DNA of 40,908 bases from Myxococcales bacterium (GTDB taxonomy: Bacteria > Myxococcota_A > UBA9160 > SMWR01). The stretch spans positions 1 to 40,908 of the forward strand of contig JAOUNA010000007.1 in assembly GCA_029881215.1 (NCBI GenBank), read 5' to 3'. The stretch's first letter is position 1; each line of letters starts with the position of its first letter. A model generated the notes under the pieces. The model did not search any database. It was not told the origin of the DNA and worked only from the letters and a program-made list of their open reading frames with translations. Shown one piece after another: positions 10,425 to 18,276 of the stretch. Both the position numbers and the translations under genes were made by a program.

Positions 10425-11951
10425 TCAGAGCACGCGGCGCGTCTCGGGGAAGCTGCGCCACACCGGGATTCCGCAAAAGTGGGCGCCCTCCGTGCAGCGC
10501 GGGCGCGCCAGGCCCGAGCGCACGAAGCAGGGCGGACCCACGTGCTCGACGAGCTTCGGCTGCACGGCGCGCACCTGCTCGATCTCCTCCATCGACGCCT
10601 GCCAGATCTCCCACTGCGCGTTCAGGCAGCTGCGCATGGTCCACTTGTGCAGCAGATCCAGCAGCGTCCCAGATTCTTCGAAACGCACGGCGAGCGCGTT
10701 CGGGAGCACGTAGAGCGCGAGGCGCGGGTCCACGCCGCGGGCGAGCAGCTGCGCGCGCGCCTCCCACTGCGCTTCCACGACCTCCCGGAAGAGCCCGTGG
10801 CAGGCGGGGTCGCTGCGGATCAGCTCGGGCTCCACCACGTCCACCCCGGCAGGCACGGTGCGCGAGAGCAGCGGGCGCGAGCCGGGCACGGTGCGATGGC
10901 GCTGATCCTGGGAATCCGCCGTGTGCGACAGCTTCTTGCGAAAGACGAAGTGCGCGTGCGCCAGGCTGCGCATCAGCGGCGCGTGCGTCGAGACGTTGAG
11001 CCGCTCGAGCCGATAGGGATTGCGCGCGGGGTCGAGCACCAGATCGAGGGCCTCCGCGTCGGAGAGGTCCGCGCGCCCGAGAACGTGGCGAACGGCATCC
11101 GCGATCGCTTCCGGAGCCCGCGCGCCGAAGCCCACCAGGCGCGCCGTGCGACCATCGAGCGACTTGTCGAAGGCCTCGAGAACGGCCGGATCGCCCAGGC
11201 CGGGCGGCGCGAGCCGCTCCTCGACGATCTCTGCCGCTTCGAGCGGAGGCTGTCCGACGCTGCGGAAGAAGTTCGGATCGGCTTGCTCGACCTCGGCCAC
11301 CATGCGCTGCACCACGTCGAGCGCCTCGTCGGGGACGTCGCCGACCCGCGCCATGCGCCGCAGCCGGTGCAGCACGAGACCCGAAACGGTGTATACCATG
11401 GCGGTGTGGCACGCGATGGGAATCACGTAGCGCGCCGTCTCGATCGCCTTCTTCTCCGCCTCGCGCGCCACGCTCTTGCCGAACGCGGCGTTCTGACGGT
11501 CCTGCAGGCGCCAGAGGGCCGCGAGGCGCGCGTGGGCGAGCGGCGCGAGCCGCGCAGCCAGCGCGGCGTAGCCCTGCCAGGCGCGCTCGATGCAAGCCGT
11601 GTAGATGCCGCGGGCCTCGCCCGCGAGTGCCGGCGGAACGTGGGCCGCCACCTCGTCGAGGCGCACGTAGCGCTGGCTCTGCTGCTCGGTGTTGTAGAAG
11701 GGGAAGCTGTGCAGGAACGACCAGACCAGCTGACGCGAGACCCCCGAAATCGCGAACTCGAAGCTGGCGTGTTGGAAGACGGTGTGGTGGCCGCCCTCGA
11801 AGGTGAGGGGGCCGATGCGGCGCCGCTGGGGCTCGGTGATCTCGTCGCTCTCGATGACGCGCGGCGAGTAGCAGGTGCGGGCGGCGGCGATCGCGCCGTC
11901 GTAGGGGCTGTTCGTCGCGCTGCGCAGGCGGACCCTGGGTCCGCGATCCAT
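10425..11951 (-). CDS. thyX: Flavin-dependent thymidylate synthase, tandem double-domain form
   Basis: ThyX makes dTMP from dUMP using methylenetetrahydrofolate, FAD and NADPH. This 508-residue protein is about twice the usual length and holds two ThyX-like halves. The first half has FEGGHHTVFQHASFEF and the NTEQQSQRY part of the signature (residues 87-95), but its RHR triad reads LHS (80-82). The second half has the missing RHR in DQRHRTVP (351-353) but no SQRY. Each half also has a recognisable ThyX C-terminal segment (ARYVIP near 173, LYVLP near 413). The ATG at 11951 is used. An in-frame TTG at 11960 with GGGAG closer upstream is an alternative. It heads the operon with the GNAT and aminotransferase genes. 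Confidence 0.86.
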   Translation of the reverse strand: MDRGPRVRLRSATNSPYDGAIAAARTCYSPRVIESDEITEPQRRRIGPLTFEGGHHTVFQHASFEFAISGVSRQLVWSFLHSFPFYNTEQQSQRYVRLDEVAAHVPPALAGEARGIYTACIERAWQGYAALAARLAPLAHARLAALWRLQDRQNAAFGKSVAREAEKKAIETARYVIPIACHTAMVYTVSGLVLHRLRRMARVGDVPDEALDVVQRMVAEVEQADPNFFRSVGQPPLEAAEIVEERLAPPGLGDPAVLEAFDKSLDGRTARLVGFGARAPEAIADAVRHVLGRADLSDAEALDLVLDPARNPYRLERLNVSTHAPLMRSLAHAHFVFRKKLSHTADSQDQRHRTVPGSRPLLSRTVPAGVDVVEPELIRSDPACHGLFREVVEAQWEARAQLLARGVDPRLALYVLPNALAVRFEESGTLLDLLHKWTMRSCLNAQWEIWQASMEEIEQVRAVQPKLVEHVGPPCFVRSGLARPRCTEGAHFCGIPVWRSFPETRRVL

Positions 11952-12172
11952 CACCGCCAAGGAATCTCCCTTGCGCGGCGTCCTTCCGCGCCGCGTGGCG
12001 TCCCCCCCGACCTCCTGGCCGATCCGATGCGAAGCCCGAACGTCGACGCCTACTCTTGCAGACCCGCGCGCTCGTTGCGAGGGCAAAAGATTTCCCATTC
12101 TGACCCGCGGAGTCTCCTTCCGCGGACCCGCTACGCGAGCTCATCGGCCGCAGCCCGAGCGCAGACTTCGCT

Positions 12173-12212
12173 CACCGAAACAAGAGGTTCGGTGTTGTTC
12201 TTCCGGTTCGGT
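12173..12212 (+). repeat. GGTTCGGT repeat cluster upstream of the sigma-54 promoter
   Basis: CACCGAA at 12173-12179 and TTCGGTG at 12188-12194 form a perfect inverted repeat with an eight-base spacer. GGTTCGGT occurs at 12186-12193 and again at 12205-12212, 19 bases apart, close to two helical turns. The cluster lies 18-57 bases upstream of the -24 element. It could be an activator or repressor site; this is inferred from position and symmetry only. Confidence 0.45.
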
Positions 12213-12229
12213 CGCCACCGCTGCCCCGC

Positions 12230-12246
12230 TTGGCACAGGGCTTGCC
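12230..12246 (+). promoter_or_regulatory. Sigma-54 (-24/-12) promoter
   Basis: TTGGCACAGGGCTTGCC matches the sigma-54 consensus TTGGCACR-N4-TTGCW at every position except the last. The GG (12232-12233) and GC (12244-12245) have the required spacing. The expected transcription start is near 12257. That lies after an upstream in-frame ATG at 12252, so it supports translation starting at 12288. Confidence 0.78.
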
Positions 12247-12287
12247 CTAGTATGCAGCGGGCAGTTGCATCTTCGCCCTCGAGAGCC

Positions 12288-14231
12288 ATGTCCCGCCTAT
12301 GGATCGTCCATCGCGACCAGCGCCAGCGCTCCGCTCTGGCCCGTCTCGCTGCAGCTTCGGAGGACGCCGTGCTCGGCGCCCCGGGCGAGCCTCGCTTCGA
12401 CGCGGCCCCGCCGGCCGAGGTGATCCTGCTCGGTCTGGGCGACGATTGGGAGCTCGAGCTCGAGTACGCGCACAGCGTCCGGCGCCGAGCTCGCGACGCG
12501 CACTGGATCCTGATCGGCGCGCCGCGCAGCGGCGACGCCGCGCTGCGCTGCTTCGACACGCTGCGCGCCGAATTTCTCGCCTATCCCCCGACGCCGGACG
12601 TGCTGCGCGAGCGCATTCGCGCTGCGCGGCGCCCCGCCGCGCCGACGCTCTCCCAGCGTGCGGGCCGCGAGGCCGTTGCCGAGCGCTTCTCGCGCTGGTT
12701 CTCCGATCTCGAGCTGCCGGAGCTGCTGCGCGCCCTCGATCCCCGACTCGCCGACGTCACGCTGCTGATCCGCGGAGAGCCGGGCACGGGGCGCAGCCTG
12801 CTCGCCCAATACGTGCACCTCTTCGGCGGAACGGCCGCGGGCGTCTTCGTGCGCGTGCCGTGCGCCGAAGCCACGCGCGCGGACGAAATCCTCGCAGCGA
12901 TCGAGCAGGCCGGAAGCCGCGCGGCGACGCCCGCCGCGCTCGCGATCTGCCTCGAGAATGTGGAGCGCCTCGCGCCGTCGATACAGGCACTCGTCTGCGA
13001 CTGGATCGAGCTGGGGCTCCCGCCGGGCGTGGTGCGCGCGCCGCGCTTGCGCTGGATGGGCACCGGCGGCGACGCAGACGCGCAGCTCCAGCCGGATGCG
13101 GGGCTGTGCCGAGCGCTCTCCGAGCTCAGCATCCGATTGCCTCCGCTGCGCGAGCGACCCCATCTGATCGACGTGGTCACCCGGGCGGTCACGCGCGCCT
13201 GGTGCGAGACGCGCCGCGAGCGATCCCGGCGCTTCGGCGAGGATGCGCTGGCGGTGATGGAGGAATATCCCTGGCCGGGGAATCTGCGCGAGCTCGAGGC
13301 CCTCGTGGTGCAGACCCTCGCCTGCAGCACCTCGGATCCGGTTCGCTCGGACGATCTGCAGTGCAATGGGCGGGCGTTCTCCCCGCTCCTGCCGAGCGAG
13401 ATCGGCGGGCGCGAGCACGACGATTCTTCGGCCGAGCGCGCCGTTGCCAGCGCCTCCGCCGAGGGCATGGCGCGACACGAAATTGCGATTCGTCGGGTGG
13501 AGGATGTGAGCGCCGCAGCGCCGCGGCCGAGCGCTGCGCCCGAGGCCGCGGCTGCGCAGCGCGCGGCGCCGGTCGACGAGATCTCGCTCGCGCGCCTCGT
13601 GGCGTCGCTCTCCCACGAGGTGCGCAATCCGCTCGCCACCCTCCGCACCTTCGCGGAGCTGCTGCCCGAGCGCTTCGCGGACCCCGAGTTCCGCAACCGC
13701 TTCGCGAAGGTGGTGAGTCAGGATGTCGAGCGCATCGACGCGCTCGTCGAGCAGCTCGGCCGGCTCTCCGATCTCCAGGCACCCAAGCACGAGACCGTGA
13801 ACCTCTCCGACCTGCTCGAGCAGTTGCTCGACGCGCGCGAGGAGACGATCCGGAACAGGCGTTTGCTCGTGCTGAAGGAGCTCGACGCGGAGCGGTCGAT
13901 GGTCGTCGCAGATCGCGAGCAGCTGCGCTTTGCCTTCGACGCGCTGCTCGGAAGGTCGCTCGAGCTGGTTCCCGAGCGCGGCGACGTCTACCTCGCGTCC
14001 CGTTACCACAACGGAGAGCCGGCGCACCCGCCGTCCGTGCGCGTGCTGCTGCGCTTCCACGACCCGGAGAGCGTGGGCTCCGCCAGCCCGGCGCCGGGTC
14101 TCTCCGTCGCGGAGAACTCCCTCGAGCTCACGGTCGCGGAGCTCGTCATTCGCGCCCAGGGCGGGCGCTTCGCCCTCACCAGCAGCGAGGGCAAGGAGAC
14201 GGTCATCGTCGTGGATCTCCCGGCGCGCTGA
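12288..14231 (+). CDS. Composite pseudo-receiver / pseudo-AAA+ / histidine-kinase-like protein
   Basis: Three degenerate signalling domains are fused in 647 residues. Residues 1-115 follow the receiver fold, but the aspartate site reads LLGLGDD and the lysine site AYPPTP. Residues 135-345 resemble a sigma-54 activator AAA+ domain. A Walker A-like GEPGTGRS (163-170), SIRLPPLRER and YPWPGNLREL are kept. The ESELFGHE/GAFTGA region is missing and Walker B reads CLENVE. After an alanine-rich linker comes an intact H-box, SLSHEVRNPLATL with His443. The region where the ATP-binding domain should be lacks the N-box asparagine and the G-boxes, though it ends in a kinase-like ETVIVVDLP. It probably works as a phosphotransfer or scaffold protein rather than as a kinase or an ATPase. 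The ATG at 12288 fits the sigma-54 start site. It precedes the NtrC-type gene by 60 bases. Confidence 0.85.
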   Translation: MSRLWIVHRDQRQRSALARLAAASEDAVLGAPGEPRFDAAPPAEVILLGLGDDWELELEYAHSVRRRARDAHWILIGAPRSGDAALRCFDTLRAEFLAYPPTPDVLRERIRAARRPAAPTLSQRAGREAVAERFSRWFSDLELPELLRALDPRLADVTLLIRGEPGTGRSLLAQYVHLFGGTAAGVFVRVPCAEATRADEILAAIEQAGSRAATPAALAICLENVERLAPSIQALVCDWIELGLPPGVVRAPRLRWMGTGGDADAQLQPDAGLCRALSELSIRLPPLRERPHLIDVVTRAVTRAWCETRRERSRRFGEDALAVMEEYPWPGNLRELEALVVQTLACSTSDPVRSDDLQCNGRAFSPLLPSEIGGREHDDSSAERAVASASAEGMARHEIAIRRVEDVSAAAPRPSAAPEAAAAQRAAPVDEISLARLVASLSHEVRNPLATLRTFAELLPERFADPEFRNRFAKVVSQDVERIDALVEQLGRLSDLQAPKHETVNLSDLLEQLLDAREETIRNRRLLVLKELDAERSMVVADREQLRFAFDALLGRSLELVPERGDVYLASRYHNGEPAHPPSVRVLLRFHDPESVGSASPAPGLSVAENSLELTVAELVIRAQGGRFALTSSEGKETVIVVDLPAR

Positions 14232-14291
14232 GTCGCCGGCCGCCGCCGCCCCGCGCGGCAGCGCGGCCGCGCGCGAACTACAGTCTGCGCG

Positions 14292-15662
<1,371 letters not shown>

Positions 15663-15709
15663 GCTGCACGCTCACCCCGCCCGCTGGGAACGTCTCGCCA
15701 CTGACGAAT

Positions 15710-15725
15710 TGTTCGGATCCGAACA
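15710..15725. promoter_or_regulatory. Palindrome 1, TGTTCG-N4-CGAACA (candidate activator site)
   Basis: TGTTCGGATCCGAACA is a perfect 16-base palindrome in the 280-base gap before the HD-GYP gene. Its centre is about 200 bases upstream of the predicted sigma-54 start site. A second site with the same half-sites and the same four-base centre lies exactly 80 bases downstream. Distant palindromes are the usual binding sites of NtrC-type activators, one of which is encoded immediately upstream. Confidence 0.6.
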
Positions 15726-15787
15726 GTTCGACAAACGCTGTTTGAGAGCAGCGGGATAGAATCCTGCTTGCTTCCTTCGATCGCCCG

Positions 15788-15807
15788 GGTGTTCGAAATC
15801 GAACACC
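15788..15807. promoter_or_regulatory. Palindrome 2, TGTTCG-N4-CGAACA (candidate activator site)
   Basis: GGTGTTCGAAATCGAACACC has nine-base inverted arms around a central AA. Its core TGTTCG-N4-CGAACA (15790-15805) repeats the pattern of the site at 15710. It lies about 120 bases upstream of the predicted sigma-54 start site, within the usual range for enhancer-like sites. Confidence 0.6.
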
Positions 15808-15891
15808 TCTCGCTGCGCTGCTCTCCCGCCTCCAGAGAAAAAAGTTTTGTGATCTCGGACACATAGCGTGGCGTGGCGAGAGGGCACCGGG

Positions 15892-15908
15892 GCGGCACGC
15901 CTCTTGCG
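15892..15908 (+). promoter_or_regulatory. Sigma-54 (-24/-12) promoter of the HD-GYP regulator gene
   Basis: GCGGCACGCCTCTTGCG fits TTGGCACG-N4-TTGCW with GGCACG and TTGC intact and correctly spaced. GG is at 15894-15895 and GC at 15906-15907. Transcription would begin near 15919, leaving about 24 bases of leader containing the ribosome-binding site AGGTGG before the ATG at 15943. Confidence 0.72.
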
Positions 15909-15942
15909 AAGGCTGGAATGCAATCCGCACACGAGGTGGGCC

Positions 15943-17118
15943 ATGGCAACCAGGAAGCCGCGCGTGACCGTCCTGATCGTCGACGACGAACGCGGACCCC
16001 GGGATTCGCTGCGCATGCTGCTGGCATCCAGCTACGAAGTCCTCACGGCGGGCAGCGGCGCGCAGGCTCTCGACATCCTGCGCACCACCCCGGTGGATGT
16101 GGTGACGCTCGACCTGAACATGCCGGGCATCGACGGACAGACGCTGATGCGCACCATGCACCACGAGTGCCCCCACGTGGAGATCATCGTGATCACCGGC
16201 TGCGCCACGATTGCCAGCGCCCAGGAGGGGATTCGCAACGGCATCTGCGACTACCTGCAGAAGCCCTTCGACGTGGTCCAGGTGACCGCCGCCGTGCGGC
16301 GGGCCGTGCAGCGGGGCAGCGCGCGGCGCGGGCTCGTGGCGTTTCTCGAGGAGCTCGGTGCGGTGGTCGGGCGCGATCGCGACACGCAGCGCATCCTGAC
16401 GGAAATCCAGCGCAGCCAGAAGATGCGCGGGAAGCTCAGCGGCCTGCTCGACGCGCACGGTCACCTCGAGCTGGCACAGGTGGAGAAGGACGCCGACTGC
16501 ACCCTCCAGTTCCTGGAGGTGCTGGCGGAGACCATCGAGCTGAACGACAGCGGCATGCGCGGCCACGCGCGCCGCGTTGCCTTCTACGCCGGAATGATCG
16601 CGGACCGCATGAATCTCTCCCTCGAGGAGCAGGAGCGCGTGCGGATCGCCGCCTTCCTGCACGACCTCGGCAAGGTGGGCGTGCCCACGGATCTGATGTT
16701 GCGGCCGTCGTCCCTCAGCGCCGCCGAGCGCGCCCTCGTGGAGCGCCATCCCGTGATCGGCGCGCGCATGCTCGCGCCGCTGGATCTTCCCGGATCGATC
16801 GCTGAGGCGATCCATCACCACCACGAGTGGTGGGACGGCAGCGGCTATCCCGACGGCATCGCCGGCGACGAGATCCCGCTCATCTCCCGCATCATCGGTG
16901 TGGCGGACGCCTTCGATGCGATGAGCAGCGATCGACCCTACCGGCCGGCGCTGTCACGGCCGGTCGTGGTCGACGAGCTCCGGCGCTTCACCGGACGCCA
17001 GTTCGATCCGGACATCGCCAAGGAGTTCCTGGCGATCCTCGAAACGGCCGTCGAGGACCTGGATCTGACGCTGCTCGCCGACGCCTCCGGCGGCCCGGCG
17101 CAGGCGCCCCCGGGCTAG
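15943..17118 (+). CDS. Response regulator with HD-GYP domain (c-di-GMP phosphodiesterase)
   Basis: A receiver (residues 5-122; Asp57 in TLDLNMPG, Lys107) is joined by a helical linker to an HD-GYP domain (about 190-375). The HD pair is His240-Asp241 in FLHDLGKVGVP. The metal- and substrate-binding HHHHEWWDGSGYP segment (291-303) and the following DAFDAMSSDRPYR are intact. It should therefore break down cyclic di-GMP under phosphorylation control. The ATG at 15943 has AGGTGG four bases upstream and fits the sigma-54 start site. An upstream in-frame GTG or ATG would fall before or at that start. The length of 391 residues is typical of RpfG-like proteins. It lies 65 bases before tatB but probably belongs functionally with the regulators upstream. 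Confidence 0.93.
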   Translation: MATRKPRVTVLIVDDERGPRDSLRMLLASSYEVLTAGSGAQALDILRTTPVDVVTLDLNMPGIDGQTLMRTMHHECPHVEIIVITGCATIASAQEGIRNGICDYLQKPFDVVQVTAAVRRAVQRGSARRGLVAFLEELGAVVGRDRDTQRILTEIQRSQKMRGKLSGLLDAHGHLELAQVEKDADCTLQFLEVLAETIELNDSGMRGHARRVAFYAGMIADRMNLSLEEQERVRIAAFLHDLGKVGVPTDLMLRPSSLSAAERALVERHPVIGARMLAPLDLPGSIAEAIHHHHEWWDGSGYPDGIAGDEIPLISRIIGVADAFDAMSSDRPYRPALSRPVVVDELRRFTGRQFDPDIAKEFLAILETAVEDLDLTLLADASGGPAQAPPG

Positions 17119-17183
17119 CGCGGCGGGAGGCGCTCGCTCCCCGGCTCCGTCCCGCGCGCCCTGCGCGCTAGCATTGCGGCGCC

Positions 17184-17537
17184 ATGTTCGGCATTGGGAT
17201 GACGGAGCTTCTGGTGATCTTCGTGATCGGGCTGCTGGTGCTCGGTCCGAAGCGGCTGCCGGATCTCGCCCGCTCGCTCGGGCGCAGCCTGGCCGAGTTC
17301 CGGCGCGCGTCCAACGATCTGCGCCGCGAGTTCATGGACGTGGCGGAAGACGTGCGCGTCGAGCCGCTCGAGCTGCCGAAGCCGCGCCCGCCCCAGAAGA
17401 AGCAGGCCGAAGTCGAGGCGACCGGGGCCGCGACCGCCGCAGCGCCGCAGGCACAGCCCGACACGGACGGGACCGCGGAGGCGCGCGAGACCCGCCCGCC
17501 CGGCGCAGCTCCCTCCGACGCGACGCACAATGGATGA
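17184..17537 (+). CDS. tatB: Sec-independent (Tat) translocase protein TatA/TatB
   Basis: This is a single-span inner-membrane subunit of the twin-arginine translocase, which exports folded proteins. It starts [20 protein letters not shown], followed by the hinge [16 protein letters not shown] and an amphipathic helix, then a polar proline- and alanine-rich tail to residue 117. The glutamate at position 8 and the length favour TatB over TatA, but the two are not always separable by sequence. Its last eight bases overlap tatC. No separate tatA is in the window, so this protein might serve both roles, or tatA lies elsewhere. Confidence 0.9.
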
Positions 17538-18276
17538 CGCGCGGCTTCCCATCGCCGAGCACCTCGCGGAGCTGCGCTCGCGCATCTTTCGCATCCTGAT
17601 CGCGTGGGCGCTGGGCTGCGCGCTCGCCTGGAACTTCAGCGAGCAGGTCTTCGGGCTCCTGATCGCACCGGCGGTGGACGCGCTCGGCGCCGGGCACACC
17701 CTGCAGGCCATCGCGCCCACCGAGGTCTTCTTCACCTACCTCAAGTGTGCCGTGCTGGCCGGCTTCGTCATCGCGCTGCCCGTGGTCTTCTGGCAGATCT
17801 GGGCGTTCGTCGCGCCCGGGCTCTACCCGAACGAGCGCAGCGCGATCCTGCCCTTCGTGCTGGTCTCGACCCTGCTCTTCGCCGGCGGCGCCATCTTCGG
17901 CTACACGCAGGTCTTTCCCCTGATGTTCTCCTTCTTCAGCAGCTTCGACAGCGCGTTCGTCGAGTCGGCCTGGACGATGCGCGAGGTCTTCGGCCTGACC
18001 ACGCGCCTGTTTCTCGCCTTCGGCGTGGCCTTCGAGCTGCCGGTCTTCGTCTTCTTCCTCTCGGTCGCGGGGATCGTGGATGCACCCACGCTGCTGCGCA
18101 GCACGCCCTACGCGGTGCTCGGGGTCTTCGTGGCGGCGGCCCTGCTCACCCCGCCCGACTGGGTGAGCCAGGTCTTCCTCGCCGTTCCGATGGTGGCGCT
18201 CTACTTGGTGGGTGTCGGGGTGGCGTACCTGTTCGGCGGCTCGCGGGCGCGCGCCAAGACCCGGAGCGCGGTGTAG
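17530..18276 (+). CDS. tatC: Twin-arginine translocase subunit TatC
   Basis: The 248-residue multispan protein recognises twin-arginine signal peptides. It has the N-terminal [15 protein letters not shown] motif, the [12 protein letters not shown] segment, [12 protein letters not shown] with the conserved family Glu, and a [12 protein letters not shown]-like helix containing the conserved glutamate. Six membrane spans can be traced. The start at 17530 overlaps the tatB stop by eight bases, indicating coupled translation. The gene ends 41 bases before the convergent carboxylase gene, with no clear terminator in between. Confidence 0.95.

Follow-up and report, generated by a model that had tools for sequence, protein, structure and literature searches.

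The composite protein encoded by gene A (12288-14231, + strand) is preceded by a -24/-12 box, TTGGCACAGGGCTTGCC (12230-12246, + strand), that on comparison with orthologous loci is a sigma-54 promoter conserved among related uncultured bacteria far beyond chance. The window, that is the whole stretch of 40,908 nucleotides that was analysed, is contig 141 of an incomplete genome (G000; 375 contigs, 89% complete). Judging by its conservation, a palindrome farther upstream is likely the enhancer, at an ordinary enhancer distance, and the gene A promoter is an enhancer-dependent sigma-54 promoter made of parts of known kinds. We propose that the box drives gene A and probably the following gene B, that an NtrC-type enhancer-binding protein sits on the palindrome at 12081-12096, and that a DNA loop would bring the bound activator, acting from one side of the double helix, to the polymerase. 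Palindrome and sigma-54 box would be reused together as a module at a small number of further genes, with a gene for an ECF sigma factor as the most widespread case, and the small sigma-54 regulon may feed an ECF sigma cascade. A cluster of short repeats between the two elements (12173-12212) would play no part. We regard this model as a whole as highly probable. Both elements, their conservation, the tendency of their spacing to be phased and the second class of promoters that carries them are evident in the compared sequences.

Of the 79 genomes from the order, 70 contain a gene A ortholog (E <= 1e-40). Loci from 65 of these were used (G006, G029, G058, G061 and G073, with just the C-terminal part listed, were omitted), and L090, which has no N-terminal match, was dropped, leaving 64 loci. 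A scan of the 280 bp above the start codon at these loci bears out the original prediction of a sigma-54 promoter: TGGCACN5TTGC is exact at 48 and has one mismatch at 12, so that 60 of 64 upstream regions carry it with at most one mismatch. It is missing in L048, L089, L095 and L063, the last of which has just 55 bp upstream. In contrast, 382 in-gene control windows of equal length contain no exact and two one-mismatch copies, and 1280 shuffles contain none and 14, respectively. The exact pattern occurs once in the window (12231-12245) and eight times in the 3.43-Mb genome, where a backwards control pattern occurs twice.

The sigma-54 consensus used for comparison is YTGGCACGNNNNTTGCW. The box had been described as matching it except for the last base; that base does differ (a final C), and there is a second departure, the A after TGGCAC. 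This A is found at 14 of the 60 orthologous promoters. The departure at the final base is the norm among them, since 58 of 60 have G or C after TTGC. Like other sigma-54 promoters, the element has GG and GC 10 nt apart inside a TGGCAC-N5-TTGC-like box upstream of a gene. RpoN is encoded in 73 of the 79 genomes, including that of the window (Sigma54_DBD at G000:C339:475-951, E 2.6e-62). No sigma-70-type promoter patterns were found in 11900-15900, and no Rfam family in 11900-12400. We infer from the box that transcription starts there and depends on sigma-54.

If the C of the -12 GC (12244-12245) is taken as -12, at 12245, the predicted transcription start is 12257 on the + strand, which fits the start near 12257 proposed originally and leaves a leader of 31 nt to the ATG at 12288. 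No in-frame ATG, GTG or TTG lies between 12257 and 12288. Given the predicted start, ATG 12288 is thus the first in-frame start codon, in agreement with the start proposed for the composite protein, and the Shine-Dalgarno match before it is weak (GAGAG). A long ORF from 12299 is in another frame than gene A and has no family match. Gene A encodes 647 amino acids with a sigma-54-activator-like AAA part, a HisKA domain and a poorly conserved ATP-binding part. After a gap of 60 nt follows gene B (14292-15662, + strand), encoding an NtrC-type response regulator with a receiver, a sigma-54 activator domain with GAFTDA and a Fis-type HTH; from their arrangement, we consider that the two genes probably form one operon and are co-transcribed. 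Among relatives with a name, the nearest that came up was 'Deltaproteobacteria bacterium isolate Meg19_02_Bin_150' (L111), at 36% identity. Beyond the operon, 15868-18276 encodes a regulator with a receiver and an HD-GYP-type (HD_5) domain, followed by tatC. Tat genes also lie downstream of gene A in G003 (labelled by eye), and tatC is near gene A in G014.

The palindrome GGGCAAAAGATTTCCC (12081-12096) lies 134 bp above the TGG of the box, scores 19.9 bits and fits the palindrome search pattern exactly; as a sequence it is present as a predicted upstream activating site in 58 of 60 orthologous promoters. It first became apparent far above the promoter in an alignment of 15 family loci, and a matrix was grown from four sites, with matches counted above 8 bits. 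Against these 58 promoters stand hits in 3 of 358 windows of coding sequence and in 5 of 600 shuffled sequences, figures that lean in favour of the matrix, which was trained on the same promoters that it scores, and that come from related rather than independent sequences. L061 and L062 have the box and lack a good palindrome.

The intergenic region is shared with a divergent thyX (Thy1; 10425-11951, - strand), and thyX is divergent at 33 of the 64 gene A loci, so the palindrome might serve thyX and not gene A. However, it is present not only at 31 of the 33 promoters that have thyX on the divergent side but also at all 27 whose fetched flanks contain no thyX (for L008 a flank of ~570 bp), which indicates that it belongs to the sigma-54 promoter and leads us to reject it as a thyX site. 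It also occurs at the promoters of ECF genes, and its distances to the sigma-54 box are helically phased. A role for thyX instead of gene A is therefore extremely improbable in our judgement. Upstream of the palindrome, CTACTCTTGCAGACC (12050-12064) is kept in many relatives that bear thyX, and look-alikes were seen by eye in some without thyX.

Distances from the palindrome core to the TGG cluster near 120, 131, 141, 152 and 160 bp. When each of the 33 genera contributes a single distance, the values reach a circular concentration of 0.58 at periods of 10-11 bp, compared with 0.22 (sd 0.09, maximum 0.49) in 300 control sets with values jittered by up to 8 bp. With the main cluster excluded, 25 genus-distinct distances keep its phase (V 0.50, p 2e-4, with the reference phase and the cluster limits chosen after the distances were known). 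Shared ancestry may inflate the phasing, yet several different whole-turn distances occur. From these alignments, the distance between palindrome and promoter tends to shift by whole helical turns, as expected for protein looping from one helix face; looping, like the identity of the activator, is something we infer. At 10.5 bp per turn, the palindrome distances at ECF genes and at gene A agree in phase to within 0.3 bp. The helical phasing of an enhancer can thus be read from comparative sequence alone.

IHF could have a role in the loop: the predicted loops of the 60 promoters contain no perfect IHF consensus, and four of them have one-mismatch sites where 0.8 would be expected. The orthologous spacers also contain a weak GGTT/CTT-like element ~28, 39 or 50 bp above the TGG (for example at 12189), at spacings about one helical turn apart; its log-likelihood is 57 compared with 45-51 in four shuffled sets.

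The original prediction had also pointed to GGTTCGGT, repeated with an inverted half-site just above the promoter, as a possible control site. The repeats are where it placed them: GGTTCGGT occurs at 12186-12193 and 12205-12212, and ACCGAAAC (12174-12181) is one mismatch from the inverted 8-mer. The cluster (12173-12212, + strand), with three copies in 39 bp inside the predicted loop and with TTCGGT and ACCGAA also present in L007, could be a repressor or architectural site. However, when the 130-bp spacer is shuffled 2000 times with its dinucleotides preserved, a 6-mer found three times on both strands has P 0.34, an exact 8-mer repeat P 0.18 and both features together P 0.10. The search for the repeat upstream of orthologous genes found TTCGGT/ACCGAA in just 7 of 60 spacers. 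The copies total 10 where 4.1 would be expected, the highest of 100 shuffled sets also reached 10, and 5 of the 10 copies sit in the window (L001) and L007. Being neither conserved nor statistically unusual, the repeats are probably incidental. We reject a conserved operator since the orthologs do not keep it, and we judge a repressor or architectural site very unlikely.

Part of the same region (12173-12204) reads as CACCGAA-N8-TTCGGTG with a T-rich tail and matches a terminator pattern on the + strand, so it could act as a weak terminator and protect the promoter against read-through. However, one such pattern in 4 kb is what chance would give (1.2 expected), just 2 of 60 orthologous spacers have it, and the region does not fold more stably than shuffles (z -0.53). 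On these results we reject the repeat as a terminator, and we judge it very unlikely that it protects the promoter in this way. The guess of a local repeat is hence replaced by a testable enhancer, the palindrome at 12081-12096.

To find other genes with this arrangement, all 79 genomes were searched for sigma-54 boxes with a palindrome core upstream at a spacing of 76-106 bp. This regulon pattern gave 33 matches in 25 genomes, whereas the reversed pattern gave none; the 25 are among the 70 genomes with gene A, and none of the nine without gene A has a match. We fetched and read 21 of the matches, in 20 loci. Seven lie upstream of one ECF sigma-factor gene, and five upstream of short secreted-looking proteins with aspartate-rich repeats (secreted-looking is a label given by eye throughout). 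Two precede another secreted-looking protein common to two species, two a secreted-looking pair in G011, and the remaining matches are single or unclear cases. The presence of palindrome and box at the ECF gene and at some secreted-looking proteins points to a small sigma-54 regulon, and in this comparison the gene A promoter looks like one of its members.

Upstream regions of the ECF gene were collected from 67 loci (30 and 37 from successive collections), and 400 bp of each were scanned. A sigma-54 box within one mismatch is present at 59 of them and absent from eight. Of 53 genomes with gene A, 47 have the palindrome core, with at least 6 of 8 positions at 95-115 bp, where shuffling would give 4.1, and so do four of six listed genomes without gene A; ties between boxes at L173 and L177 lower the count. 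At the ECF gene of the window's genome (G000:C118:9227-9784), GGGAAAATTTTTCC lies 101 bp above CTGGCACAGCCCGTGC (one mismatch). A further candidate at the end of G000:C242 (L105:374-455), with a palindrome and a one-mismatch box 61 bp from the 22-mer, is directed towards the end of the contig and has an exosortase gene as its neighbour. A looser pattern, with a loose core and a spacing of 115-145 bp, is matched in 41 of the 79 genomes. Many of its matches are gene A promoters, many others are not, and some probably arise by chance; in G000 the gene A promoter is its sole match.

Exact sigma-54 boxes also occur at other genes of the window's genome. One stands above the gene of an NHL-repeat protein (L099:1530-2748, G000:C40), with no palindrome above 9 bits; TGAGTCAAATC at this locus is shared with the upstream region of the relative in L114, and the box likely belongs to another regulon with another activator. 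Another is above the gene of a multihaem cytochrome c7-like protein (L098:1501-2660, G000:C30).

The enhancer and its regulon give a first handle on the role of the conserved composite protein. The consensus of its AAA part, from 62 orthologs, reads GExGTGR, with an arginine replacing the Walker lysine; GAFTGA is not visible in this consensus and is missing from the window's protein. Unlike a sigma-54 activator, which has the Walker A lysine and the GAFTGA loop, the gene A protein lacks both, so by its sequence it is probably no such activator itself. Its HisKA histidine is present (HisKA 47.6 bits), and HExRNPL is conserved. No HATPase_c match was obtained at E 0.001, and the usual N box and DxGxG of the ATP-binding part are not visible in the consensus of the 62 orthologs. 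The protein might act as a phosphatase or scaffold towards a response regulator. More tentatively, and in our view rather less likely than not, the fused pseudo-enzyme, an inactive activator-like module joined to the remnant of a histidine kinase, would not activate promoters itself and would instead tune the activator of a previously unrecognised, ECF-coupled GGGMAAN4TTTCCC sigma-54 regulon across most of the order.

As the response regulator of the same operon, gene B is the obvious candidate for the activator on the palindrome. If it binds 12081-12096, its phosphorylation would let the operon drive its own expression, and gene A would be its partner. Gene B has what a sigma-54 activator (bEBP) has: Sigma54_activat at 235.9 bits, HTH_8 at 42.1 bits and GAFTDA, a loop variant listed as compatible with activation in the consulted part of a study of D. 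vulgaris (PMC4641369). It follows gene A within the fetched flank at 46 of 64 loci, 14-799 nt away (median 64). The activator loop of these 46 reads GAFTDA in 23 and GAFTGA in 15 (the rest were not read), and the C-terminal HTH appears by eye to be strongly conserved. The restriction of the regulon pattern to genomes with gene A also favours gene B. However, a gene B ortholog above ~50% identity is missing from eight of the 17 genomes in the family, although in one of the eight (G009) gene B is cut by the contig end. Gene A sites are kept without gene B in G001 (26.3 bits), G002 (11.0), G003 (13.8), G004 (10.6), G013 (16.8) and G014 (26.3), and in G005, where both genes are missing from the assembly, an 8/8 site is kept at the ECF gene. 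The mean site score is similar whether the locus has gene B (18.4; 42 loci) or lacks it (17.7; 18 loci), and a helix of the gene B type is present in none of 20 other activators from G001-G005, G013 and G014. The lack of gene B in G014 is likely real because this genome is 95% complete and gene A lies well inside a 300-kb contig. We give gene B somewhat less than an even chance of being the protein on the palindrome.

Alternatively, a different enhancer-binding protein that almost every genome of the order has retained could bind the palindromes of both gene A and the ECF gene; gene B would then respond to gene A and act on other targets. This would agree with the persistence of the palindrome where gene B is missing and with the many such activators in each genome, and an activator ending in RWNRKxAAxxLxISYKALLYKMKENGL is found in both G005 and G014. 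In contrast, no specific protein is tied to the palindrome, and where a genome is incomplete, a missing gene B may reflect a gap in the assembly; G060, for example, has gene B and a contig end where gene A is expected. We consider it a toss-up whether such a protein is the activator.

Like NtrC-type sigma-54 promoters, the gene A promoter has a -24/-12 box and a palindrome 100-200 bp upstream, and its genome encodes an activator that carries a Fis-type HTH; it differs in that sigma-54 dependence is here predicted from sequence. We know of no named activator site that matches GGGMAAN4TTTCCC. Literature searches with topic words found no description of this motif or regulon, which hints that both may be new. 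By its logic, the nearest described system in our comparison is PrsK-PrsR of the PEP-CTERM proteins, in which, as far as the consulted parts of the sources go, a kinase and an NtrC-type regulator are likewise combined with a palindrome-like site and a sigma-54 box above genes of exported proteins (PMC1569441, PMC9850573). Unlike the palindrome here, the predicted PrsR site ends in TTTACA, and its mean distance to the box is 63 nt, according to the part consulted (PMC1569441). Gene B scores 402.3 bits against the PrsR model (TIGR02915), below the curated cutoff of 502.6 bits, and one of the 79 genomes has a PrsR above it; with the cutoff not reached and the site unlike, we reject gene B as PrsR. 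In the sigma-54 regulome of D. vulgaris, activator sites were similarly paired with sigma-54 boxes by comparative reconstruction, and GGGAA and TTCCC were not found in the main text of that paper (PMC4641369).

The module at the ECF gene predicts a cascade from sigma-54 to an ECF sigma factor in bacteria known from assembled metagenomes. A sigma-54 promoter drives another sigma factor in the case of hrpL. In the RpoN-RpoS pathway of Borrelia, a sigma-54 promoter also drives the gene of a second sigma factor (PMC3037356, consulted in part). As in these two systems, as far as they are covered by what was consulted, sigma-54 with an enhancer-binding protein would drive a second sigma-factor gene, whereas here the case is made from sequence only and the ECF gene, the activator and the lineage are others. 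In the window's genome, two ECF sigma-factor genes stand in tandem (L163:693-2058, G000:C118), and the first has the palindrome and the sigma-54 box upstream.
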